Assembly (NCBI RefSeq): GCF_001696605.3
Contig: NZ_CP031716.1
Span: 1,984,001 to 2,048,000 of the forward strand
DNA length: 64,000 bases
Direction: 5' to 3'
Origin: Acinetobacter wuhouensis
GTDB taxonomy: Bacteria > Pseudomonadota > Gammaproteobacteria > Pseudomonadales > Moraxellaceae
Every line of letters begins with the position of its first letter. The stretch's first letter is position 1. The position numbers and the translations under genes were made by a program. The notes under the pieces are model-generated. The model was not told the DNA's origin, ran no database searches, and worked only from the letters and a program-made list of their open reading frames with translations. This document shows, in pieces, positions 14,956-61,689 of the stretch.

Positions 14956-15633
14956 ATGCCTTTACAACATTTACCCGTCTGGATTCAACTTGGTGCTTTC
15001 ATGCTTGCAGTCAATGCAGGCATGATTAATGTTTTAGGTTTAATCACCGTTTTACATCAGTCTATCTCTCACATGACGGGGAATGCCAGTCTGCTTGCTC
15101 AAGCGCTGATTCATCAACAGTTTGATATACTTATTTATCTAACGCTGATTCTGCTCAGTTATATACTGGGTTCAAGTTATAGTGGTTTTATCTTGGGCAA
15201 TAGCCATTTTGAGCTTGGGCGTCGTTATGGCGTACCACTCAGTTTGGTCGGCATTTTTATTTTCCTATGCTGGTTATTTATTCCCAATTACCCGAAATAT
15301 GCCCTACTTTGGGCAAGTGCTGCGATGGGAATGCAAAATGCGATGGTTAGCCATTATAAAGGCACGATTATTCGTACAACTCATCTTTCAGGTGTTTTAA
15401 CTGACCTCGGATTGGCTTTGGGTTATTATTTCCGAGGATTCTCAAGTGAAAAACGCCGTGTCATACTACATTTGCTTATTCTTTTTGGATTTATTATCGG
15501 TGGAATGATTGCCACCATCATTCATCCTTATTTACAATTGAATGCATTTCTTATTCCCGCAGGCTTAAGTTTGAGTTTAAGTCTGGTGTATTGGTTCATT
15601 TATTTTCGGCATGGTTCGAAACATCATTCATAG
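14956..15633 (+). CDS. YoaK family (DUF1275) membrane protein
   Basis: 225 residues with about six hydrophobic segments. The N-terminal AVNAGMINVLGLITVLHQSISHMTGNAS and the later GMQNAMVSHYKGTIIRTTHLSGVLTDLG are signatures of the DUF1275/YoaK family, whose transport role is not established. The gene ends 13 bp before the next chosen start, so the two may be co-transcribed. Confidence 0.85.
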   Translation: MPLQHLPVWIQLGAFMLAVNAGMINVLGLITVLHQSISHMTGNASLLAQALIHQQFDILIYLTLILLSYILGSSYSGFILGNSHFELGRRYGVPLSLVGIFIFLCWLFIPNYPKYALLWASAAMGMQNAMVSHYKGTIIRTTHLSGVLTDLGLALGYYFRGFSSEKRRVILHLLILFGFIIGGMIATIIHPYLQLNAFLIPAGLSLSLSLVYWFIYFRHGSKHHS

Positions 15634-15646
15634 TTGGTTAAGTGTT

Positions 15647-16180
15647 ATGGTCAAAAATGCATTGCAAGCACAGTTATTAAAAGCTGGCTTAGTTGACAAT
15701 AAAAAGGCAAAAAAATTGTCAAAACAGGCTCAACATGAGCAACGCACTGGTCAAAGTAATGAAGCGGAATTAAAAGCAAAAATTGAGCAAGATAAACAAG
15801 AAAAAATTTCTAAAGATCAAGCGTTAAACCAAGAGAAACAAAAGGTTTTAGATGAAAAAGCCTTAAAAGCATCGATCATTCAAATGATTGCACAGCATAA
15901 AATTAAAGATACGGATGGTGAAGTTGTTTATCAATTTATTGATGGTACGATTAAAAAAGTTTATTTGAATCAGCAAATATATAATGCTCTTGTTTCAGGT
16001 AGCTTAGTGATTGCCAAAGAAAGTGATCATTATGCATTTTTACCAAAAGCTTTGGCAGAACGTATCAATGAGAAAATGACCGGCTTTATCATTAGCACCA
16101 ATGCAGAGAAAAATGAACAAGTTACAGATGAAGAAGATCCATACGCAGCCTATGTCATTCCTGATGATTTAATGTGGTAA
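15647..16180 (+). CDS. DUF2058 (YaiL-like) nucleic-acid-associated protein
   Basis: 177 residues from the chosen start MVKNALQAQLLKAGLVDNKK, which aligns with YaiL family N-termini; an upstream in-frame ATG would overlap the previous gene. Residues 10-75 are lysine/glutamine-rich and helical, probably coiled coil. The C-terminal half carries YQFIDGTIKKVYLNQQIYNALVSGSL, typical of the family. YaiL is described as a nucleoprotein or polynucleotide-associated enzyme; its function is poorly known. A strong terminator follows. Confidence 0.85.
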   Translation: MVKNALQAQLLKAGLVDNKKAKKLSKQAQHEQRTGQSNEAELKAKIEQDKQEKISKDQALNQEKQKVLDEKALKASIIQMIAQHKIKDTDGEVVYQFIDGTIKKVYLNQQIYNALVSGSLVIAKESDHYAFLPKALAERINEKMTGFIISTNAEKNEQVTDEEDPYAAYVIPDDLMW

Positions 16181-35643: not shown

Positions 35644-36864
35644 ATGCTGACTGATACTAAAATTAAAAGCCTTAAACCTCGTGACAAAGCTTATAGAGTA
35701 GCTGATCATAATGGACTCTGCATTGAGATTCGACCTAGTGGAACCAAATTATGGCGTTACCGCTATCGGTTTAATGATAAAGCCTCGATGTTAAGTCTTG
35801 GTGAATACCCTCTTGTAGGTCTGGCTGATGCTAGAAAAGCTCGTGATCAAGCTAGATTGCTTCTTGATAAAGGCATTAATCCATCTCAAAATCGAAAGCA
35901 AGAAAAAATCGAAGCTCAATATCTAAGTGTAAACACATTTGAATTAGTTGCTAATGAGTATATTGCAGAAATTTTAATTGATAGGTCAAGTGGCTATATC
36001 AGCAAATTTAGAAAAGCCTTGGAACTTGATGTCTTCCCTGTTATTGGTGACAAGAATGTAAGGGATATAACTTCCGCTGATATCTTGCATATCGTTAAAT
36101 CCACGGTTAAACGTGTTAGGGAAACTGGAAAAAGAGGAAGTGGTGAAGTTACTGCATTAAATAATCAGAAATTTATTGGTGCCGTAATGCGCTACGCTAT
36201 CGCAACACTAAGAGCAGATGTTGACCCGACATATGCTGTGCGAGGTGCTATTGTTCGCCCAGAGATTGAACATGCTAGACCTTTAACAAATCAAGAGCAA
36301 AAGCTTTTTAGATCTGGCTTGGATACATTTAAAGGCTCAAATACTGTTAGAAATGCACTGCTAACCATGGCTTATACAATGTTACGCTCAATTGAGATTC
36401 GTCGCATGAAATGGAGTTATATTGACTTCGATCAAAAAATTATAAATTTCCCAATTTCAACCAAAAGCAACAACCAAGAACGAACAACAAAGAAAAATCG
36501 ATTGCACCTTGTGCCAATGTCAGATCAATTATTTGATTTGTTAAAAATGCAATATGTGGAATCTGGCAACAAAGAATATGTATTCCCTAGCATTTACGGC
36601 CATAGTGATGGTGAGATTGGTAATTCAACAATCAATGTTGCTCTTAAGAATATGGGGCTTAAAACTGTTACAGCCCATGATTTTAGGGCTACAGCATCAA
36701 CGATTTTAAATGAAAAAGATTTTGATGAAAATTGGATTGAAAAACAACTAGCTCATGCAGACCAGAATAAAACAAGAGCATCATATAACCATGCTAAATA
36801 CATGGAACAACGTAGAGATATGTTGCAACAATGGGCTGATATTGTGGATGGGTGGAAAGGTTAG
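35644..36864 (+). CDS. int: Phage tyrosine integrase (P4-type, DUF4102 N-terminus)
   Basis: 406 residues. The N-terminal DUF4102 region (about 1-90) has LTDTKIKSLKPRDKAYRVAD and LSLGEYPLVGLADARKARD. The catalytic domain has Arg near 247 (MLRSIEIRRMKW), HDFRAT near 345, a later His (LAHADQNKTRASY) and the Tyr of KYMEQRR near 387. All active-site positions are present, so it should be functional. It inserts and excises the prophage. It is the only rightward gene of the lysis end. Confidence 0.93.
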   Translation: MLTDTKIKSLKPRDKAYRVADHNGLCIEIRPSGTKLWRYRYRFNDKASMLSLGEYPLVGLADARKARDQARLLLDKGINPSQNRKQEKIEAQYLSVNTFELVANEYIAEILIDRSSGYISKFRKALELDVFPVIGDKNVRDITSADILHIVKSTVKRVRETGKRGSGEVTALNNQKFIGAVMRYAIATLRADVDPTYAVRGAIVRPEIEHARPLTNQEQKLFRSGLDTFKGSNTVRNALLTMAYTMLRSIEIRRMKWSYIDFDQKIINFPISTKSNNQERTTKKNRLHLVPMSDQLFDLLKMQYVESGNKEYVFPSIYGHSDGEIGNSTINVALKNMGLKTVTAHDFRATASTILNEKDFDENWIEKQLAHADQNKTRASYNHAKYMEQRRDMLQQWADIVDGWKG

Positions 36865-43560: not shown

Positions 43561-44706
43561 TCAAACCCCTATTTCTAAAATTGAAACTGAAGCCTCAACA
43601 ATATCAGCACCTTGAAAATTTAAATCAATAGAATCAGCATCTAATCGATGTAGGCTTAAATATGAAATGCGTTGAATAGATGAAGCATTCTTATTCAACG
43701 CAGGCGTTATCGTGATTTGTACAGTGCTTCCCGAAACCAGTGCAGATGCGGTGATAGTGTGAGCCGTCCAGATGCCATTACTCTTGATTGCAATATGTTT
43801 GCGAACATCACTAAGCTGCTTATACTGATCGGATTCAATCAGCATGACTGATGAAATGAATCCTGTGCTTTTACAGCGCATATTAGCTTCATACGTTGGC
43901 AACCAGAACGGACGGTATTTTCCTCGTCTGCGAAATAGAAATTGCCGATATGCATACAGATCTTCAGCACTATGAATCACCGCTCGGTACTGCTTTGAAT
44001 ATCGCGCAAAATTCCAATCTGAGTTTTGAAAAATCACTCCAACTTCGTTATTAATCATGTTCTGTTGCTGCACCAAGGTAGATTCCATGGAGTCACCAGA
44101 ATAAGTTAGGCAAAACCAATACAAATCATTTCCTAAAAATTGTTGCGGCACACTTTCAGCAACTTCAGGTTCATCAATTACGATAAATGTAATGGATGAC
44201 TGTGTATGTAGGCTGCTAATCTGTCGCGAAATATCTCCGCTAATAAAACATACTCGCACTGGGTAAAGCTTCGCATTCGAGATATTCACGACATTAGTAA
44301 GCACCAAGCGGTCGACTTCAACTGTTTCAACTTTAACCAATACTTGCTCAGAGTTGTTTTTCAACAATGCAAGGCAGCCATCATAAAAAGAGAAAATATC
44401 AGTCCGACACATCACAAAATCAGCAGATACATCACCAACAAATTGAGATTCCTGAAACAATGGAACAGCCCAGTTTTTACGTATTCCGCCCCATTGAGTA
44501 TTGAAATGCTGTGCAATTTCATTACGTAATACAACTGAAGAAAAGCCCAGCGTTTGCCGGGCTTTATCTTTGAGCGGAGTTCTGACTTCTGTACCATTTT
44601 TAGACTCAAACACATCAGTTTTAAACCCTAATGTTTCAGTCCCTCCAACCAATGCTGGCGAAGTTAACAAAATTACCTCACCGAAATTTTCCGTTGTTAA
44701 TTTCAT
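43561..44706 (-). CDS. Tail hub / distal tail protein
   Basis: 381 residues, with TENFGEVILLTSPALVGGTETLGF at the start and FRRRGKYRPFWLPTYEANM in the middle, the latter resembling the distal tail proteins next to DUF2163 genes. No enzymatic motif. Start overlaps the tape-measure stop by 4 bases, so expression is coupled. The assignment is mostly by position. Confidence 0.7.
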   Translation of the reverse strand: MKLTTENFGEVILLTSPALVGGTETLGFKTDVFESKNGTEVRTPLKDKARQTLGFSSVVLRNEIAQHFNTQWGGIRKNWAVPLFQESQFVGDVSADFVMCRTDIFSFYDGCLALLKNNSEQVLVKVETVEVDRLVLTNVVNISNAKLYPVRVCFISGDISRQISSLHTQSSITFIVIDEPEVAESVPQQFLGNDLYWFCLTYSGDSMESTLVQQQNMINNEVGVIFQNSDWNFARYSKQYRAVIHSAEDLYAYRQFLFRRRGKYRPFWLPTYEANMRCKSTGFISSVMLIESDQYKQLSDVRKHIAIKSNGIWTAHTITASALVSGSTVQITITPALNKNASSIQRISYLSLHRLDADSIDLNFQGADIVEASVSILEIGV

Positions 44707-47700
44707 GCAATCATCGCCTTAATCGAAGATCGATTATTTTTAATGAAATTCATAAAGGTTTTAGTACCAGATGAAGTGCCCATGAAATCACCTACAATCG
44801 AAGGATCTAAGATGTTATTGATTTGTAGATGCTGTAAATTTGCTTGTTGTTTTTGTTGCGCCTCCTCCATATATCCGCTAATAGTTGGACTTTGAGCATT
44901 TATCAATTTAGGCGCATCCAACGCTAATCCACCATCAGCGAACCCATTACGAATTGAATCTCGCAATGCATAGAAGCCAGCCGGCCCACCTAGTGCAGCG
45001 ATTTCTTCTTGCGTTAAAACCCCTTCACCTTTGTGGACAATACCAGCCGGCTCATATTTACCACCGAATCCAGTAAAACCACCAGTTGCATAGCCAACAG
45101 GACTCAATGCTGAAACAGCAGCTTGAAGCAATCCAGTTTCCATTGTTGCAATACCAACTGCTGGCAAATTATATGGGAAAGGTGCTGATGCCCAAGCTGC
45201 TGAAATTGCTTGATAACTATTCATTGCAGTAGAGAACAATGCAAAGCCTTTTTGAACACTACCAAGAATGGCATAAGCCGAACTTGATGAATCAACTAAG
45301 CCCATCATCATGCCTGCAAAATCTGCACCGTACTGGGCACCGTATGACATCTGCATAGCCAAACGCTGTTGTTGATACTCCTCTTCTGTCAATAGCATGT
45401 GCTTACGTGCTTCTGCAAGCAAATCTATGTCTTGCTGATATGGAGACTTTTCAAGCCCCATCATGGACTGATAATCACTCCAAACCTGTTCACGCTTGGA
45501 GTTTTCTTCTACTCCCTGCTGAATATTCGCCTGCTTTACTAGCGCATTTTTCATCTCAGGTGAATATTTCGCAGTATTAAGAATTTCTTCTCGTACTAAT
45601 GCGTAATATTCTTTGGCATAGTCTTCAGTAGATATCCAGTGGCGCTTAGCTTCAAGGAGTTGTTTTTTATCACTCAGCTCTTTTTGTTTCTGAGCTTCCT
45701 GATATTCAGCAACGTCTTTTTGATACGCAGCATTTTGCATTTCAGTGTATTTCTTGATTGCAGAATCATCGCCTGCAAATGCAAGTTCAATAGCTTTGAT
45801 TTTTTCCTTATGATCAAAGGCTAACTGCTGATCTTCGGTAAAATAGGTTTGCTGAACAGTCTGTTGATTTTCTAGAGCTTGTTTGCGAACCTCCTCTAGC
45901 TCGCCCCAATATTCAGTCCAATCTTTAAGATTTGCAGCAGCATCGTTAGCTAAAATACCAGCAGATTTATTTGATGTTCCACCCAGTCCAACAAGCCACT
46001 TGTCAACCAAACCAGAGTAGGCGGATGCCTCTTTGGTTTTAGCAGATGACCCAGTAAATCCTTTTGACTTTAGATCTTTAGTTCCTTTAACCCCAGCGTT
46101 ATATGCGGTTACAGCATCACTCCAGTTCCCAAAAATCTTGAATGACTCGGCTAGGTCCTTAGCCGCCACTTCTGCCGACTTTTTGACATCATATGAATCA
46201 GCTACAGAGAGACCATATTGCTTTCGATAAATACCCGTTGTTTGAAATGGTCCAATCGCACCAGTCTGACTTTTTGCATTTACATTCCCTTTGGATTCTT
46301 GAGCCATTACAGCAGCAAGCATATTTTCAGGAATACCGTACTTTGAGCCAATCTCATTTAATCCATACTTTGAATTAATTTCTGCAACTTTTTGAAGCAT
46401 TTTTAGCTCTGCGTTGCTATATGAATACTGCTTCTGGCTTAATTCAATCTGCTTGCGCTTTGCCTCCTCAATTTTCTTTTCAGACTCTTCACGAGCCTTA
46501 GTTTGTTGCTGAAGTTTGTACCCAGCCTCAACCTGCAAAAACCAAGCTTTAGATGAAGTTTCTGAAAAACTCATGCCCGAATCTTCTCGCGCATCAGCAA
46601 AATAGTTTGCCTTATCACGACTCCAACCTTTTGCAATGTTTGCAACAATGTAGTTTTCGCGGGCTATATCAGCACTTATATTTTTAAGTGCCTCTCTTTG
46701 CTTCTGAGTGAACCCAAGAAGTGCTTGCTCTTGAGCTGAGATCGACTTCGCATTTTCATTATTCAGTCTAGTATTTTCTTGAACCTTTCCTGAATAAATA
46801 CCTAAGACTTTTCGTGCATCATCAACTGCTGATTTTTCTTTACCCACTGACTCAGCTTTTTTATCAATACTAGACTTTGCAGTATCACTTATCGTTGCTA
46901 GGCTGTTCACGGCTGTAGCAAGTTCGTTCGAATTTATTTTACCTAAACGATATTGCTCAAATAATCTAGATGCTGAATCACGATCTTTTTCAGATACCTC
47001 TGAATTTCGAGTAACAGCATCAATAAGCCCGAGAAGCTCATTCTTTTGCTCACGGAAAAGTTTATTTGCTTCATTTAACTCGTCTGTAGCTTTACGAGTA
47101 AGTACACGCTGTTGGGTTGTATCTAACTTCTCATATTCAACACGTAGCTCTGCAACTGTTTTCCCTTGGGTGCTTAATGATGGATCTAGTGTATCGCTAG
47201 ACTTTTTCATATAAAGAAAAGCAGAGCCGGCAGCAATCCCCTGAACAGCTAACATAGCCAAACCAGCAGGGCCACCAAGAAAAGCCATTGCGCCACGTAA
47301 TGCAACCATTGCGCCGGTGGTTGTAGATGCTGATGCAGACAGCCCAATTAATCCAGCACCAGCACGAACCGAAAATGCAGCTAATTGGGCTAATTGAATA
47401 CTTGTTGCAACAACAGTTGGCACCAATTTAACTGCCATGGCGGCAGTTAATGCTAAGGCAACCGCTTTGATATCATCCATATTATCTGATACCAGTTGCA
47501 CTACAGGAACCACGTTATTTACAAGTGTTGCTTTTAATCCATCCCATTGCAGATTTAACAGCTGCACATTTTCTTTTGCCAGCGCCAAGGTCTCAATCAT
47601 CTCATCTGACATGATTGCATTAGCGCGTTCTGCCGCATCACCCCATTTTTTAAAACCCTCACCTCCATTTTCTAATAACGGGATAAGCAAGGAGGAGTCT

Positions 47701-48251
47701 GAAATAATGGCCTCCATATAGAACTTCAGGTCATTTTGAGAGGCACCGACTTTCTGCAAAGAATCATAATAAAGCTGAAGTGCTTCTGGTCCTGACAGCT
47801 TTTGGAATTGCTGAATAGTTACACCAACAAGAGGAGCAATATTTTCAAAGAAGTCAGCTAAAGGCCCACCACCAGTCTGTTGGAAATCACCAATACGGTC
47901 TTGCATGTCTTTCATCTTATCAGCGAAAGACTCCATGCTAATCCCAGCAGTTTCCGCACCTTTTGCGTAAAACTGAAAGTCTCGAACTGAAGTATTGGCA
48001 AGTTGGGCGAATTTTTTAATTTCACTTCCGGTTTGAATAGTTTGGTCTGCAAAGGCAGCCATGCCGCCAATCGAAATCCCCGCAACCGCAGCACCAAATG
48101 CGGTCGCTGCGATACTCGCAACACTAAAGCTATTTGCAATATTTTTACTTGAGCTTTTGGCTTGGCGTTCAGCCTGTGTCATTGGGCCCGTAAAATTGCC
48201 AATTTTTGTAACCAAATCTAGGGTTAAACGACCCAATGATGCTGTTGCCAT
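44703..48251 (-). CDS. Tape measure protein with transglycosylase domain
   Basis: 1182 residues. The N-terminal LGRLTLDLVTKIGNFTGPMTQAERQAK is a standard tape-measure start. Hydrophobic, Ala-rich segments lie at about 250-350. Long helices (EQQTKAREESEKKIEEAKRK) follow. A lytic transglycosylase (SLT) domain occupies about residues 620-760, with catalytic Glu in PENMLAAVMAQESKGN and then GAIGPFQTT and AVTAYNAGVKG. It sets tail length and probably opens peptidoglycan during DNA entry. The C-terminus has AGIVHKGEGVLTQEEIAALGG, common in these proteins. Confidence 0.9.
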   Translation of the reverse strand: MATASLGRLTLDLVTKIGNFTGPMTQAERQAKSSSKNIANSFSVASIAATAFGAAVAGISIGGMAAFADQTIQTGSEIKKFAQLANTSVRDFQFYAKGAETAGISMESFADKMKDMQDRIGDFQQTGGGPLADFFENIAPLVGVTIQQFQKLSGPEALQLYYDSLQKVGASQNDLKFYMEAIISDSSLLIPLLENGGEGFKKWGDAAERANAIMSDEMIETLALAKENVQLLNLQWDGLKATLVNNVVPVVQLVSDNMDDIKAVALALTAAMAVKLVPTVVATSIQLAQLAAFSVRAGAGLIGLSASASTTTGAMVALRGAMAFLGGPAGLAMLAVQGIAAGSAFLYMKKSSDTLDPSLSTQGKTVAELRVEYEKLDTTQQRVLTRKATDELNEANKLFREQKNELLGLIDAVTRNSEVSEKDRDSASRLFEQYRLGKINSNELATAVNSLATISDTAKSSIDKKAESVGKEKSAVDDARKVLGIYSGKVQENTRLNNENAKSISAQEQALLGFTQKQREALKNISADIARENYIVANIAKGWSRDKANYFADAREDSGMSFSETSSKAWFLQVEAGYKLQQQTKAREESEKKIEEAKRKQIELSQKQYSYSNAELKMLQKVAEINSKYGLNEIGSKYGIPENMLAAVMAQESKGNVNAKSQTGAIGPFQTTGIYRKQYGLSVADSYDVKKSAEVAAKDLAESFKIFGNWSDAVTAYNAGVKGTKDLKSKGFTGSSAKTKEASAYSGLVDKWLVGLGGTSNKSAGILANDAAANLKDWTEYWGELEEVRKQALENQQTVQQTYFTEDQQLAFDHKEKIKAIELAFAGDDSAIKKYTEMQNAAYQKDVAEYQEAQKQKELSDKKQLLEAKRHWISTEDYAKEYYALVREEILNTAKYSPEMKNALVKQANIQQGVEENSKREQVWSDYQSMMGLEKSPYQQDIDLLAEARKHMLLTEEEYQQQRLAMQMSYGAQYGADFAGMMMGLVDSSSSAYAILGSVQKGFALFSTAMNSYQAISAAWASAPFPYNLPAVGIATMETGLLQAAVSALSPVGYATGGFTGFGGKYEPAGIVHKGEGVLTQEEIAALGGPAGFYALRDSIRNGFADGGLALDAPKLINAQSPTISGYMEEAQQKQQANLQHLQINNILDPSIVGDFMGTSSGTKTFMNFIKNNRSSIKAMIA

Positions 48252-48313: not shown

Positions 48314-48892
48314 TTAAAGGCCACGTGAATCCTTTATCGTCTTTTCTGAATAACATGCATCACTGTTAGAAAGTTCATAGGCTAAAGTAATGTATCCAGA
48401 ATTTAAATTTTTAGCTTTTGCCTTTAGCATAATATTTTTTACACCATTAGTTTCCAATGGCCCCCATGCTACTGCTAAAATACGCTCTTCTTTAAGTAAG
48501 CTCATTGTCCATTCATTTGAGTCTTTCCAAATACTACCGCTTCTTAGGAAATTAAAATCACCCTCAGGTTTCCCGTACTTGGAGATTAGTGACTCTTTTG
48601 TGCTCGAAAACTCATCTCTAATTGCATCACCATAAACGCTAGTAGCAATAGGCTTTCCAAAACCTATTACCTTGCAAAGCCCATTTTGCGGTGTTATAAC
48701 CATTAAATAGTCTGCAAATCCTGCGTATGGAATAGGTACCTTTTTAAAAGAATAAGAATTATCCCCAAGCTTTTCTGGCTGCCCACTAACTTTGATTACA
48801 TCAGCCAACGACATCCCAACTTTAAGCCCAAACGGAGCATCTGCGAAAGCATTAGTTGTTAATAGCGCTAAGATAAATAGTATTTTTTTCAT
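48314..48892 (-). CDS. Exported protein, probable prophage moron
   Basis: 192 residues with a clear signal peptide (MKKILFILALLTTNAFADAPFG), so periplasmic. The mature part contains GLKVGMSLADVIKVSGQPEKLG and SLISKYGKPEGDF, a repeated pattern like small lipoprotein-type SmpA/OmlA folds. The two Cys could form a disulfide. It is bounded by terminators at 48938-48964 and 48268-48292, with ribosome site GAGGG. Possible roles are envelope change or superinfection exclusion; function is unknown. Confidence 0.7.
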   Translation of the reverse strand: MKKILFILALLTTNAFADAPFGLKVGMSLADVIKVSGQPEKLGDNSYSFKKVPIPYAGFADYLMVITPQNGLCKVIGFGKPIATSVYGDAIRDEFSSTKESLISKYGKPEGDFNFLRSGSIWKDSNEWTMSLLKEERILAVAWGPLETNGVKNIMLKAKAKNLNSGYITLAYELSNSDACYSEKTIKDSRGL

Positions 48893-48937: not shown

Positions 48938-48964
48938 CAAAAAGAAACCCACCGAAGTGGGTTT
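48938..48964 (-). terminator. Terminator after the KilA-N gene
   Basis: On the minus strand AAACCCAC and GTGGGTTT pair perfectly around a TTCG tetraloop, followed by CTTTTTG. It ends the arc-like/ant-like unit. Confidence 0.85.
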
Positions 48965-48968
48965 GTGT

Positions 48969-49853
48969 TTATTTGCGCTTGTAATCTAATGCCATGCGTT
49001 CGGCGCAATTTAAATGCCATTGATAATATTCAGATCGCTCACGCTGTCTTTTTAAATCATCTTTATCTATAAAGTGGAATGCAAACATCGCTCCATCAGT
49101 AAAATGATCATGTACAGCCGCAGCCATATTTGGGCTAAGTGTTCTAAGTGGCTCACCAAACTGCCTCCACCACTCTCGAATCCAAAGCATATGCCATGCT
49201 AAACCTTGAACATTATTGTGATAATTTTTATCTATTTGAATTAAATTATCTTGCTTAGTTGAAACCTTAGCCTTTAACTCCATTGTTTCCAGATAATGAA
49301 CAGCCTCTGGAAAATGAATTTCTAAAAGCTCTGCATAGCGCGGGATTTTAAAATGTCGATTATGGCGCGCCCACATTTCAGCAAAGATTTTACGTTCACC
49401 TTGAGAGCGACGCGCCACAATCTCATGAAGTAATGCTTGCTGTTCTGGTGAGATGGCTTGGCGCGCCTTAACTCTGAATTGCATCACCATTGCGTCGTAA
49501 GCCCGAATAACCTGTAAATGGAATTTTGCAGAAATCCACATTGCGTACGAGTAAACCAATTCTTTCACAACATATGTGCCTTGTTCTTTACCTCTACCAC
49601 GAATTATATTTACTGCTTTCTTACATGATGCAGGATTTCCTGCATCATAATTTTCATCCTCAATTGCAGCTATCAACTCTTGAGTTTTTTCATTCTCAAT
49701 AAAAAATCCGGGCCGATCCTTACGCAAATCCCCACCAGCCTTATGAAGATCATTCAAGCAATAGCGTCCATCTTCATCCTGACGAATTGAAAACTCACCA
49801 ATAACCAACGGTTGAGTATTTGGATTTACTAGATTTTGTGTTAAATTAGACAT
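48969..49853 (-). CDS. KilA-N domain antirepressor-like protein (ant position)
   Basis: 294 residues. The N-terminal KilA-N domain spans about residues 15-125 (RYCLNDLHKAGGD; KELVYSYAMWISAKFHLQVIRAYD). The C-terminal part has QALLHEIVARRSQGERKIF and HFKIPRYAELLEIHFPEAVHYLE, like antirepressor C-terminal domains. Such proteins bind phage repressors and cause induction. It follows an arc-like gene on the same strand, while a mnt-like gene reads the other way, as in P22 immI. A terminator follows closely. Role is inferred from domain and order. Confidence 0.8.
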   Translation of the reverse strand: MSNLTQNLVNPNTQPLVIGEFSIRQDEDGRYCLNDLHKAGGDLRKDRPGFFIENEKTQELIAAIEDENYDAGNPASCKKAVNIIRGRGKEQGTYVVKELVYSYAMWISAKFHLQVIRAYDAMVMQFRVKARQAISPEQQALLHEIVARRSQGERKIFAEMWARHNRHFKIPRYAELLEIHFPEAVHYLETMELKAKVSTKQDNLIQIDKNYHNNVQGLAWHMLWIREWWRQFGEPLRTLSPNMAAAVHDHFTDGAMFAFHFIDKDDLKRQRERSEYYQWHLNCAERMALDYKRK

Positions 49854-49916
49854 AGTTACTTCTCATTAGTAATGACATCAATTAAGCCCTTGCCGTCGAA
49901 AGTCTGGGCTTTTTTG
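49854..49916 (+). ncRNA. Possible sar-like antisense RNA between arc-like and ant-like genes
   Basis: On the plus strand, opposite to the flanking genes, AAGCCC (49884-49889) and GGGCTT (49906-49911) form a stem followed by TTTTT, with no plus-strand gene to end. A promoter-like pair TTGGAT (49820-49825) and TAAATT (49842-49847) with 16-base spacing would start RNA near 49854, just outside the ant-like ATG. The RNA would be about 60 bases and complementary to the ant-like ribosome site. P22 has such an RNA (sar) at this place. The stem is only 6 bp with a 16-base loop, so this is tentative. Confidence 0.4.
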
Positions 49917-49929
49917 TTGTCTGTTAAAT

Positions 49930-50094
49930 TCATGCTTTCGCACTCTTTTGGTTTTCTCGCTTTTCTAACCATTCTTCAATGATCATATTTAGCTGAGCTG
50001 TGATAGTTCTGCGGTCTTTCTGAGTTTCCTCTTTAAATCGCTCTAAAGTTTTTTCAGGTATACGCACGTTTACCTGTGGATCTTGTCTTGCCAT
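49930..50094 (-). CDS. Arc-like ribbon-helix-helix repressor
   Basis: 54 residues from MARQDPQVNVRIPEK, chosen because GGAG lies 6 bases upstream and because the frame before it overlaps operator repeats. It is a complete RHH fold: QVNVRIPEKTLERFKEETQKDRRTI then a second helix ending in a basic tail, same size as Arc of P22 (53 residues). It should repress the divergent intergenic promoters and the arc-like/ant-like transcript. It lies 76 bp before the KilA-N gene. Confidence 0.8.
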   Translation of the reverse strand: MARQDPQVNVRIPEKTLERFKEETQKDRRTITAQLNMIIEEWLEKRENQKSAKA

Positions 50095-50111
50095 TTTCAA
50101 CTCCATCTCAA

Positions 50112-50187
50112 TGTTAGCACTAGCTAACAATTGCTAACATAGCAAACAATTCAAACTTGTGTCAACATATTTTGCTAACAATTGCTA
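50112..50187. promoter_or_regulatory. Operator/promoter region of the RHH genes
   Basis: GCTAACAATTGCTA occurs twice (50123-50136 and 50174-50187), and TGTTAGC-ACTA-GCTAACA (50112-50129) is a perfect 7-bp inverted repeat. These repeated TGTTAGCA half-sites lie between the divergent arc-like and mnt-like starts, as expected for Arc/Mnt-type operators. Confidence 0.7.
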
Positions 50188-50208
50188 TCAAAATATTAGG
50201 ACTAGAAA

Positions 50209-50553
50209 ATGTCTGAAGATGTTCAATTTAACTTACGCATACCATCTGAGCTAAAACAGCAGATAGTTGATGCTGCCAAGCGAAATAGCAGATCTATTAA
50301 TGCTGAGGCTCAATTGCGACTAGAGAGAACATTTGAACTCGATAGCCTCCCCGAGCCAACCAATCCAAAAAATATTACTGACCCCGATAAGCTCGAAGCT
50401 TGGGCTAAATCGGTGCTTAATGAGCTATTAAAACTTAAAGATATAAGCAACCGAGTCGATCGACTAGAGGGTGATATGGAGAAAATGGAGGCTAATAATT
50501 ATGATGTTGAAAATAGATTAAATGATCTGGATGGTCGAGGATATGAGCCTTAA
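50209..50553 (+). CDS. Mnt-like Arc-family repressor with C-terminal coiled coil
   Basis: 114 residues. The N-terminal RHH (VQFNLRIPSELKQQIVDAAKR, then SRSINAEAQLRLERTFE) is typical of Arc/Mnt. The C-terminal half (about 65-105, LLKLKDISNRVDRLEGDMEKME) is a coiled coil, as in Mnt, which uses one for tetramers. It reads opposite to the arc-like gene from the shared operator region. It is the only rightward gene inside the structural region. It would keep the antirepressor off in the lysogen; inference by analogy with P22. Confidence 0.8.
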   Translation: MSEDVQFNLRIPSELKQQIVDAAKRNSRSINAEAQLRLERTFELDSLPEPTNPKNITDPDKLEAWAKSVLNELLKLKDISNRVDRLEGDMEKMEANNYDVENRLNDLDGRGYEP

Positions 50554-50702: not shown

Positions 50703-51358
50703 TCAGCTTCCCCCGAAACTTTGCATCATGTATTCCTCAAGCGACAATTCCTGTGGTTGATCCTCATGCGGCATAAATGACTGTGCTTTTACATCCTTAG
50801 CGCCTTTTGAACTCAAGTATGTAGCCATTAGATTTCCAATGGCTTGCTCAATGCGACGACCAATAAAAAGAGAGCCTCGCTTTTGACGAAAGGCTCTCCA
50901 AATTAAATACTCTTGGCGAGTTATTCTTTGTTTGGCTTCAGCAATTGTTCTTCCTCCAATTCCATTGATGACGAGTTCACACCATCCTTCTTCTTCTTCG
51001 CTAAGATCCAATTCTTTCCCGCAAAATCTAAAACCTCGTCAGCAGCGGTATACATAGCCTCAATTACTTCAGTTGAAATCGAGCCAGTCTCTGAAAGTTT
51101 TGGAAAAAACTTTGTATCTTCATCTTCGTGTACAACCAAAAATACTAAAGCTTTTTTTAACTGATCCAGTGTAAGGTCTTGCTTGTTTTTAAGCTTCCAA
51201 ACATCTGAAGCATTAACAATCTCATCATGTGATGCAATCTTAATAAGGATTTCACCACCGACTTCAGCGCCATCTTTATCGCGGAACTGAATTGTTTTTT
51301 CAACAAAACTACCTACACCAATCACCTGCTTGGTTGCTGTTAATGTTAATTTAGCCAT
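50703..51358 (-). CDS. Tail assembly chaperone fusion (gpG-T-like, -1 frameshift product)
   Basis: The 50703-51013 frame has no ATG start and overlaps the 3' end of the gpG-like gene in the -1 frame. A ribosome slipping back at GGGAAAG (51014-51020) would join residues 1-115 of the first frame to 103 residues of the second, giving about 218 residues. The second part carries ELDLSEEEEGWCELVING and RQEYLIWRAFRQKRGS. In lambda the G-T fusion recruits tail tube to tape measure. Order (tube gene before, tape measure after) fits. Confidence 0.82.
50921..51358 (-). CDS. Tail assembly chaperone (gpG-like)
   Basis: 145 residues in the unshifted frame. Starts MAKLTLTATKQVIGVGSFVEKTIQF, ends in an acidic stretch (SSSMELEEEQLLKPNKE). 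The region before the slip site, EVLDFAGK, is followed in frame by NWILAKKKKDG. It is short, soluble and placed between tail tube and tape measure genes, the constant position of such chaperones. It starts next to the tube gene stop (51358). Confidence 0.82.
   Translation of the reverse strand: MAKLTLTATKQVIGVGSFVEKTIQFRDKDGAEVGGEILIKIASHDEIVNASDVWKLKNKQDLTLDQLKKALVFLVVHEDEDTKFFPKLSETGSISTEVIEAMYTAADEVLDFAGKNWILAKKKKDGVNSSSMELEEEQLLKPNKE
51014..51020 (-). promoter_or_regulatory. Programmed -1 frameshift site GGGAAAG
   Basis: In the zero frame the site reads G-GGA-AAG, identical to the lambda G/G-T slippery heptamer and in the correct phase. The -1 frame is open from here to 50703. Confidence 0.85.
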
Positions 51359-51828
51359 TATGGAGTCACCACGCGTGGAGTTGTTACAACTGCTGAAGTA
51401 CGAACAAGGGTGAACGTATAGCCAACCAATGCATCTTGTTCAACTGTTGGTGCGGCTGGGTTGATATAACCCTCAAATGACCACCAAATACGATCTTCAG
51501 GTAGGTCGATACCAGCAACAGCCTCATAAGTAGGTGGTGTTTTAGAGTGGCTTGAACCTACATGCCACTTCACCTTTTCACCTGATTCAGCAAGCTCAAT
51601 TAGTTTCAAATGGCTTGTGTTTGTATCATCAAGATCAATTTGAATAGAACCTTCACCCGGATCACGCAGACCGCGCTCATAATCTTTAGTGTCCGAATCT
51701 AGGCAGGTTGAATCAATCTTTGAGAACGAATCCTCACCGAATGAAAATGCTTTAGGGCAAGTGAAACGAACCACTGCACCATCGACAACAGCAAAAATCT
51801 GTGTCCCGTTGGATTTAATACGCGCCAT
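51358..51828 (-). CDS. Major tail tube protein
   Basis: 156 residues. Pattern of siphovirus tail tube proteins: IDSTCLDSDTKDYERGLRDPGEGSIQID near residue 40, the immunoglobulin-free short form, and WWSFEGYINPAAPTVEQDALVGYTFTLV near the end. It lies directly upstream of the tail chaperones. A terminator (51857-51879) separates it from the accessory gene before it, so late read-through or a promoter in 51829-51856 must supply its transcript. Confidence 0.82.
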   Translation of the reverse strand: MARIKSNGTQIFAVVDGAVVRFTCPKAFSFGEDSFSKIDSTCLDSDTKDYERGLRDPGEGSIQIDLDDTNTSHLKLIELAESGEKVKWHVGSSHSKTPPTYEAVAGIDLPEDRIWWSFEGYINPAAPTVEQDALVGYTFTLVRTSAVVTTPRVVTP

Positions 51829-51934: not shown

Positions 51935-52486
51935 TCAATCCTCATCGAGCATCCACATCTTTGGAACAATAATCTTGGTAATATTATCTGGAAGGTCAAC
52001 CTTGAAATCGCAAGCAATCGCATATCCAGATTTCACATTCATTTCATGCATGTATTCAAGCAGCTGAGCGAGTGATTTGCTAGTGAATGACTTTTTACAC
52101 TCAACTGGAACAGTTTCACCCTCAAGCTCTGCAAAAAAATCTGGGCGCTTCCCACTTGCCAATGGTTTCCCTTTTACTATTTTTATTCCATTTCTCTGCC
52201 CATATATTTTCATCCAGCTGTGAACTACTGAATACTCATCTTCTCCGAGTTTCTTTTCTGGTGAGACAGAAAGCTTGTAATTGAAAATACAGGCATCTTG
52301 CACAGCCATTCGCAGCATTGAGAATGTTACAGATTTACCATCATCATTTTTTTCTGTAAATTTCAGCAAGCTAATCATTGTCTCAAAATCTTGCTCCAAT
52401 GATGCATCATAAGCATGAGCCAATACATCAGCAAATGTGAAGTTTGCGCTATCACTGTCAGTTATCTTAGAATTGATATCAGTCAT
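51935..52486 (-). CDS. Moron protein with PD-(D/E)XK-like nuclease motif
   Basis: 183 residues, no known family recalled. A stretch near residues 118-135 reads GKRPDFFAELEGETVPVECKK: Asp in RPDF, then Glu-Cys-Lys with hydrophobic residues before it, which is the D-x(n)-(D/E)-x-K pattern of restriction-endonuclease-like folds. After it comes SLAQLLEYMHEM, like the helix that carries the conserved Gln. The gene has its own promoter-like site and terminator and interrupts the head-tail order. A role in defence or phage competition is inference; catalysis is unproven. Confidence 0.6.
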   Translation of the reverse strand: MTDINSKITDSDSANFTFADVLAHAYDASLEQDFETMISLLKFTEKNDDGKSVTFSMLRMAVQDACIFNYKLSVSPEKKLGEDEYSVVHSWMKIYGQRNGIKIVKGKPLASGKRPDFFAELEGETVPVECKKSFTSKSLAQLLEYMHEMNVKSGYAIACDFKVDLPDNITKIIVPKMWMLDED

Positions 52487-61312: not shown

Positions 61313-61374
61313 TGCGCCATGTAGGACTTGAACCTACGACCCAAAACGGCTCTTACCAACTGAGCTAATGGCGC
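61313..61374 (-). tRNA. tRNA-like gene lacking the anticodon arm
   Basis: On the minus strand GCGCCAT and ATGGCGC form a perfect 7-bp acceptor stem, GCTC-AGTTGGTAA-GAGC a D arm, and GTAGG-TTCAAGT-CCTAC a perfect T arm. Between D and T arms only 11 bases (CGTTTTGGGTC) remain instead of about 23, so there is no anticodon stem. No CCA follows. It is either a decayed phage tRNA or a tRNA mimic. It lies between a terminator and a small Zn-protein gene. Confidence 0.7.
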
Positions 61375-61405
61375 AAAAAAAGGACGTGGTGATCAGCCAC
61401 ATCCT
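61375..61405 (-). terminator. Terminator directly before the tRNA-like gene
   Basis: On the minus strand AGGATGTGG and CCACGTCCT pair (one G-T) around CTGATCA, followed by TTTTTT that abuts the tRNA-like 5' end. Confidence 0.8.
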
Positions 61406-61480
61406 TGCCTTAGATTACGATATTGATCAACTCGGCAACTGATCTACCGCTACTCAACACGACAAACATCTCAAAGTTAG

Positions 61481-61689
61481 CTATTGATTTGCTTTGTGTC
61501 TTTCAATTCCATTGGTCGGGGAGTCACCCACAATTTGAGGCTCTGAGGCTAACTCAATGTGTGACGAAATCACATTGGATTCAAACCGATTTATACGGCT
61601 GGTTTCTGCATCCCACCGTTTGCGCTTATAGCTGAGCAAATTGCACAGCGTCACAAATCCAAGTTCTTTTAAAGCTAACAGTCTTTCAT
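61481..61689 (-). pseudogene. Small phage gene with frameshift after the start
   Basis: ATG at 61687-61689 has a good ribosome site (GAGG, 8 bases upstream) but stops after four codons. In the neighbouring frame a 67-codon reading runs on as RLLALKELGFVTLCNLL and later RKRWDAETSRINRFES. A single lost base after the ATG (ATG-GAA to ATG-AA) would restore a 69-residue protein. The composition looks coding. It may be a real mutation or a sequencing error. Confidence 0.55.

Follow-up and report, generated by a model that had tools for sequence, protein, structure and literature searches.

The described systems that most resemble the locus analyzed here are the immI region of phage P22 and its counterpart in Emek, a P22-like Salmonella phage. 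P22 is annotated (NC_002371) with mnt on the minus strand, the operators Oarc and Omnt, arc on the plus strand, sar on the minus strand (15021-15090), and ant on the plus strand (15091-15993), and repression by Mnt, the block by sar, and the action of Ant on the repressor have been described (PMC11016777, PMC12197685). When complexed with the repressor, P22 Ant shields it from proteolysis induced by RecA, and P22 with immI deleted shows a lower frequency of lysogeny (PMC11016777); several phages have repressors on which P22 Ant acts, and what it does in the phage life cycle has been described as incompletely understood (PMC3121763). For P22-like phages, the “ant moron”—a high-flux cassette of the late operon that often carries immI with sar—and its flux have already been published (PMC2629481), and sar has previously been described in several phage genomes (PMC13397905). 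The Emek record (NC_018275) reads mnt (-), arc (+), orf73 (+), and ant (+), and tags its KilA-N Ant “(Defective?).” A putative antirepressor gene is listed for an A. baumannii prophage (PMC3978071), in Acinetobacter phage TCUAN1 (ON531988) an Arc-like gene is divergent from a run of genes whose last member is an annotated anti-repressor, and Psychrobacter phage Y8A has, some 0.8 kb ahead of its tape measure gene, the Arc-like ORF43 divergent from the KilA-N ORF44, a pair that the available part of the source paper does not name immI (PMC10434257). Among the matches listed from titles and abstract openings of the open-licence literature, we found no description of an immI-type module or of a sar RNA in Acinetobacter phages.

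In this study, we examined a three-gene module within a 64,000-nucleotide stretch of Acinetobacter wuhouensis DNA (the window). We propose, with a probability of roughly 0.85, that this module is an immI-type antirepressor cassette, or “ant moron,” carried by a siphovirus prophage of Acinetobacter in its late tail region. The preliminary description had placed a Mnt-like gene reading rightward and an Arc-like and a KilA-N gene reading leftward from a shared operator region; the three reading frames are open at the coordinates and strands it gave, and strands and domains agree with that layout. The antirepressor candidate ant (48969-49853, minus strand, 294 aa) combines a KilA-N domain (Pfam E 5.1e-22) with an ORF6C-type region that scores slightly below the cutoff (E 2.5e-4, 21.4 versus 22 bits) and matches the anti-repressor family phrog_2127 (E 1.5e-56); a terminator-like hairpin, by consensus match only and on both strands, lies 3′ of it (48945-48964). 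The arc-like gene (49930-50094, minus strand) encodes a ribbon-helix-helix (RHH) protein of 54 aa that matches Pfam Arc just above the cutoff (E 2.2e-4, 21.4 versus 20.4 bits) and has counterparts in other modules at up to 100% identity. The mnt-like gene (50209-50553, plus strand) encodes an RHH protein of 114 aa (Pfam Arc, E 1.6e-8) with a longer C-terminal part, which by eye is probably a coiled coil and has a weak match to TolA_bind_tri (E 0.037). The names mnt-like and arc-like were given by position and length and not by nearest sequence: the RHH part of the mnt-like protein is closest in sequence to P22 Arc (top PDB hits 1u9p, 1myk, and 1arq, with 1mnt at 0.03), and the arc-like protein is closest to P22 Mnt (1mnt, E 0.018).

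The order and orientation of these genes, which had been likened to P22 mnt and arc-ant, agree with P22 immI and more closely still with Emek. With P22 immI the module shares mnt divergent from arc-ant over a common operator region, two RHH proteins of which one is longer, a sar promoter inside ant with its extended -10 element at -12 to -7 from the ant start, a sar terminator (predicted in the window) at the end of arc, and a location among late virion genes. It differs in its Ant, which is of the KilA-N/ORF6C type in the window and of the P22_AR type in P22, in its operator, which has several repeated half-sites instead of the one annotated Omnt, and in its slot, which lies among siphovirus tail genes and not between genes 16 and 9. 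Emek additionally shares a KilA-N Ant at the ant position, preceded by a sar-like hairpin and -10 element, but carries orf73 between arc and the sar region, unlike the window. A protein search with Ant against 50,697 phage records returned 146 matching records, all below 60% identity, and the 25 that cover at least 80% of Ant comprise 23 Vibrio phage records with two-piece matches and two Emek records with one-piece matches; Emek, with an Ant 32.7% identical to that of the window over residues 1 to 250, is the only phage among these records with a single-piece match of that coverage. In TCUAN1, the anti-repressor lies two genes from the tail chaperone and a sar element lies behind the arc position; unlike the window, a 128-aa protein separates arc from the anti-repressor, and the tail is of another type. 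The ant moron is known from P22-like phages (PMC2629481), whereas the module described here occupies other phages and another slot. A possible distant analogue is found in Vibrio phage p41 (MK672799), where a pair of KilA-N-type genes set among the tail genes diverges from a small gene (L004:2854-4447).

The surroundings of the module are those of a prophage. As had been claimed, it sits between the tape measure gene (44703-48251, minus strand; phrog_1506, 4.5e-187) and the T- and G-type tail assembly chaperone genes (50703-51358, minus strand), which are followed by the tail tube gene (51358-51828), the chaperone and tube genes being identified by Pfam and PHROG; an integrase is encoded at 35644-36864. 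The preliminary description had also placed the main repressor outside the window, and a CI protein with a helix-turn-helix (HTH) and a peptidase S24 domain is indeed encoded past the window end, in the lysogeny region about 18 kb from the module (L008:7229-7918, equivalent to window positions 68229-68918). This CI, which has Cys-Gly at residues 100 and 101, is the likely target of Ant, by analogy with P22; because it has an S24 domain of its own, the switch need not be required for induction. The early region next to CI also holds another gene of antirepressor type (ANT/KilAC, E 5.5e-19, and a weak match to Rha; L008:5868-6608), at whose start an RHH gene ends, the pair spanning L008:5868-6931 (window equivalent 66868-67931). 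Between ant and the tape measure gene, a 192-aa protein with a start that by eye resembles a signal peptide (48314-48892, minus strand) is unmatched in phage records; some other modules also have small genes for secreted or lipoprotein-like products nearby, and this one is perhaps a superinfection exclusion gene, as sieA is in P22. Elsewhere in the same genome, beside transposase-like genes, is a second, reduced module (L110:8553-9868; G000:C8:2148552-2149867) with an Ant-like start (MNSLTF), a divergent RHH-like gene, and a sar-type hairpin and -10 element, in which we saw no arc. Two further observations concern the window itself: a 183-aa protein in the tail operon (51935-52486) has weak, sub-cutoff nuclease-fold matches to Tox-REase-9 and PDDEXK_3, and at 61313-61578 (minus strand) Rfam gives a tRNA and a Pseudomonadales-1 RNA where ARAGORN lists no tRNA.

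A search of Acinetobacter prophages for the same module and for variable content, as the preliminary description had proposed, returned many modules with swapped parts. Of 175 genomes of the genus, 57 match the KilA-N Ant at 1e-10 and 32 match the Mnt-like protein at 1e-6, and many of the weaker matches to either cover only part of the protein. Divergent RHH pairs collected from these genomes and from viral contigs gave 161 rows and 66 distinct modules, of which 56 were kept after one truncated module and nine with an RHH protein longer than 300 aa were dropped. Since divergence was itself the criterion for entering this list, an unbiased figure was taken from 51 viral loci selected by Ant alone: the immI arrangement with both RHH genes is present in 41, a divergent RHH gene alone in 7, and neither in 3, meaning that none was detected by the RHH profile used. 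With both RHH genes adjoining ant in 41 of 51 loci, the grouping is not a matter of chance, and this speaks against the RHH proteins pairing with other genes elsewhere. Nor is the tail slot an oddity of the window phage, since 31 of 55 modules (Emek being left out of this count) have a tape-measure-like gene on the Ant side and a tail-tube- or chaperone-like gene on the Mnt side. Only the tape measure side was found in 8 of the 55 and only the tail tube side in 2; 6 had flanks that were too short, 8 lacked both tail flanks although 3.5 kb or more was available on each side, and none had the reversed arrangement. Tape-measure-like genes were recognized by tblastn with the tape measures of the window and of fEg-Aba01 and with long ORFs of L071, L078, and L105, which are 21 to 24% identical to the window tape measure, and two unlike tail types, the window type and the TCUAN1 type, host the module. 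Beyond the genus, a profile of KilA-N Ants at 1e-10 matched 73 of 299 genomes of the wider family, in 6 of 16 genera, and the loci sampled there have an RHH gene nearby in some cases and none in others. Phage-plasmid-like Acinetobacter replicons of 50 to 60 kb also carry the module (L271, L272, and further plasmid records), with RefSeq labeling their Arc “plasmid partition protein ParG” or “HicB family antitoxin.” In other genomes, a Mnt-type RHH heads proteins of 314 to 337 aa and is divergent from a small RHH gene (L051, L053-L061, and L063), which is possibly another RHH-controlled element.

The protein at the ant position is itself exchanged between modules. Per-family totals for the N-terminal domains, which add to the 41 Ants scanned with Pfam, were 19 KilA-N, 12 Bro-N, 6 P22_AR_N, 3 ORF6N, and 1 AntA, and ORF6C was matched by 11 of the 41; the scan took 41 of the 42 Ants of at least 150 aa (L125, cut off by a contig end, was left out) and excluded five modules whose first gene after arc encodes a different protein of 125 to 128 aa. 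There is no toxin family among the six Pfam families that these Ants reached at 1e-3, and the domain type of P22 Ant itself, P22_AR_N, occurs in those 6 of 41 Ants from modules related to that of the window. This exchange bears on an alternative in which the KilA-N protein would serve as a late regulator that binds DNA, or be some other moron, and Mnt, Arc, and sar would merely silence it in the lysogen. KilA-N is known as a DNA-binding domain (PMC10434257), and the weak fold matches of the AlphaFold model of Ant (mean pLDDT 69) include the Mbp1 DNA-binding domain (TMt 0.54, E 0.74), no match falling below E 0.001 and the best being DdrC at 0.012. However, P22_AR_N, AntA, and Bro-N proteins interchange with KilA-N proteins under the same controls, and the KilA-N protein of Emek is annotated as ant, so we consider a role as late regulator or other moron unlikely.

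The control region itself points to Mnt as the protein that sets operator specificity. The 114-bp divergent operator and promoter region (50095-50208) contains repeated GCTAAC/GTTAGC half-sites starting at 50113, 50123, 50133, 50174, and 50184. Allowing at most one mismatch, the 14-mer GCTAACAATTGCTA has two sites in the entire 3.96-Mb genome, both within this region, compared to one site in the genome for the reversed control pattern. A predicted arc-ant promoter on the minus strand (50136-50165), by consensus match only, consists of TTGACA, an 18-nt spacer, and TATGTT preceded by TG. When intergenic identity was regressed on the identity of the Mnt RHH part, the Mnt C-terminal part, and Arc across 45 redundancy-thinned modules, the standardized coefficients were 0.62, 0.08, and 0.04, and these were reached by 0, 25, and 358 of 2,000 label permutations, respectively; a small effect of the Mnt C-terminal part is thus also apparent. 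Pairs with Arc at least 85% identical and Mnt RHH below 70% have a median core identity of 0.54 (15 pairs), against a background of 0.57 (688 pairs), whereas pairs with Mnt RHH at least 85% identical and Arc below 70% reach 0.84 (16 pairs), although neither set is made of independent pairs, because related modules supply many of them. In the natural chimera L105, a Mnt RHH part like that of L072 is joined to a C-terminal part like that of the window Mnt; the L105 operator belongs to the L072 type, and the L105 Arc shares 96% identity with the window Arc. As far as sequence comparison reaches, covariation and natural recombinants together show that operators track the RHH domain of Mnt and not Arc. 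Joining cores at 72% identity sorted 55 modules (Emek left out) into 14 operator groups, 8 of them with a single member, and in the larger groups the Mnt beta-strand is nearly uniform and Arc kinds are mixed. No operator specific to Arc could be located: modules that share an Arc but differ in Mnt RHH are no more alike in this region than background pairs, and by eye modules with near-identical Arc have nothing in common except the -35 element. In this respect the modules, in which no Oarc was found, differ from P22, in which Oarc is annotated.

The best evidence for the P22 reading is one that the preliminary description did not consider: at the place where sar is annotated in P22, sequence signals predict a sar-like RNA of about 63 nt on the plus strand (49854-49916), which would span the ribosome-binding region of ant and the greater part of the gap between arc and ant. 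Its predicted promoter lies inside ant (49819-49847) and consists of TTTGGA (49819-49824) and, in ant codons 3 to 5, an extended -10, TG.TAAATT, with TG at 49839-49840 and the hexamer at 49842-49847; the predicted terminator (49884-49915), near the end of arc, has AAGCCC, a 16-nt loop, GGGCTT, and a T-run. Relatives preserve no reading frame in the arc-ant gap but do preserve a hairpin whose T-run lies on the strand opposite ant. We rejected a 25-aa ORF (49856-49933) as a leader peptide, since its frame is shifted, cut short, or extended in relatives that retain the hairpin. These signals were tested in 48 of the 56 modules, six without an ant start 45 to 135 nt after arc (including Emek) having been dropped and L045 and L052, in which we saw no sar-type element, set aside; in L047, L027, and L029, ant begins directly after arc without a sar gap. 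Of the 48 modules, 45 have a terminator on the sar strand and 3 have one on the opposite strand, compared to a mean of 0.3 and a maximum of 2 in 20 rounds of dinucleotide shuffling. Relative to the ant start, the -10 columns are T-12 (45/48), A-11 (47/48), and T-7 (46/48), preceded by T-15 (42/48) and G-14 (44/48). Of 38 distinct sequences, 35 have TAnnnT exactly at the P22 -10 position, compared to an average of 0.71 sequences for the other offsets. Counted from the ant start, this position is occupied by TGCTATACT in P22 and by TGCTAAGCT in Emek. In the three exceptions (MTLNSL, MTSMSL, and MTTMSL), TAAACT or TAGACT lies six bases farther upstream. The -10 element is kept where the ant residues differ (MLNIPF, MGTIPF, MTIVAE, and MTTIQQ) and therefore does not merely reflect protein conservation. 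Of the Ant-selected loci without the full arc and mnt set, 9 of 10 have a sar-type hairpin and -10 element under a slightly laxer T-run rule.

The predicted window RNA folds into a 5′ hairpin and a terminator hairpin, like P22 sar. Against shuffles, its fold is moderately stable (z -2.4), compared to a weak signal for L019 (z -1.4) and z -5.3 for P22 sar. Stem types vary among modules (GCCC/GGGC, CCTTG/CAAGG, and GCAGA/TCTGC), the stems having been located by a search that inflates pairing, and RNAalifold found no consensus pair in an unanchored MAFFT alignment of 47 modules (L024 left out for length), probably because the different stem types do not line up; the Rfam matches obtained were no better than chance. 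The moderate fold score and the missing consensus would suit a hairpin that is a plain terminator or an mRNA structure and not the end of an antisense RNA, yet the T-run favors the sar strand (45 modules against 3), an extended -10 stands at a constant position just upstream, and the annotated sar of P22 occupies the same place. We hold a plain terminator or mRNA structure to be quite improbable. The loop core CCGCCAAGA occurs in 13 of 47 sar hairpins and its reverse complement TCTTGGCGG in 7 of 47, so that pairing between the sar RNAs of different prophages is conceivable. We give little credence to the further idea that the sar RNA of one resident prophage could pair with that of another and free its ant mRNA, which, if true, would add RNA cross talk between co-resident prophages to the immunity groups set by Mnt and its operators; duplex energies are uninformative here because the stems are palindromic. 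Elsewhere in the genome, the loop 11-mer occurs at three sites that by eye lack such a hairpin and at a fourth, which is the second module.

A toxin-antitoxin or partition pair, with the RHH proteins as antitoxin or ParG-like protein and the KilA-N protein as toxin or cargo, is very improbable: the HicB and ParG labels in Acinetobacter plasmid records, the PHROG name “partition protein ATPase,” and a weak ParG match of the Arc-like protein (E 0.0046) speak for it, but RHH similarity is nondiscriminating, the partner at the ant position is swapped among five antirepressor-type domains, the sar signals and the divergent Mnt fit immI, and the host element is a prophage with an integrase and CI. 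For an immI-type cassette, architecture, linkage between Mnt and operator, sar signals, and exchange of Ant domains provide support at the sequence level, and we propose the following mechanism. In the lysogen, the Mnt-like protein would bind the repeated operators in the 114-bp region and keep the arc-ant promoter off, as the recombinants suggest, and sar RNA, judging from its position and conservation, would pair with the ant ribosome-binding region and block translation of any leak. The Arc-like protein, if it acts as in P22, would be a second, co-transcribed brake. When control fails, for instance on entry into a Mnt-free cell or through late read-through, Ant would be made and, given its domain type and the P22 precedent, may inactivate the CI-type repressor of its own or of a co-resident prophage.

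Our results place the logic of P22 immI, sar signals included, in many phages of another host genus, where its parts are naturally shuffled, with 14 operator groups among 55 modules, many Arc kinds, and five antirepressor-type domains. The module also suggests better labels for public records that name such genes ParG or HicB antitoxin. Because the parts have been shuffled in nature, changes of RHH specificity, a second immunity group through immI, and the targets of Ant become testable.
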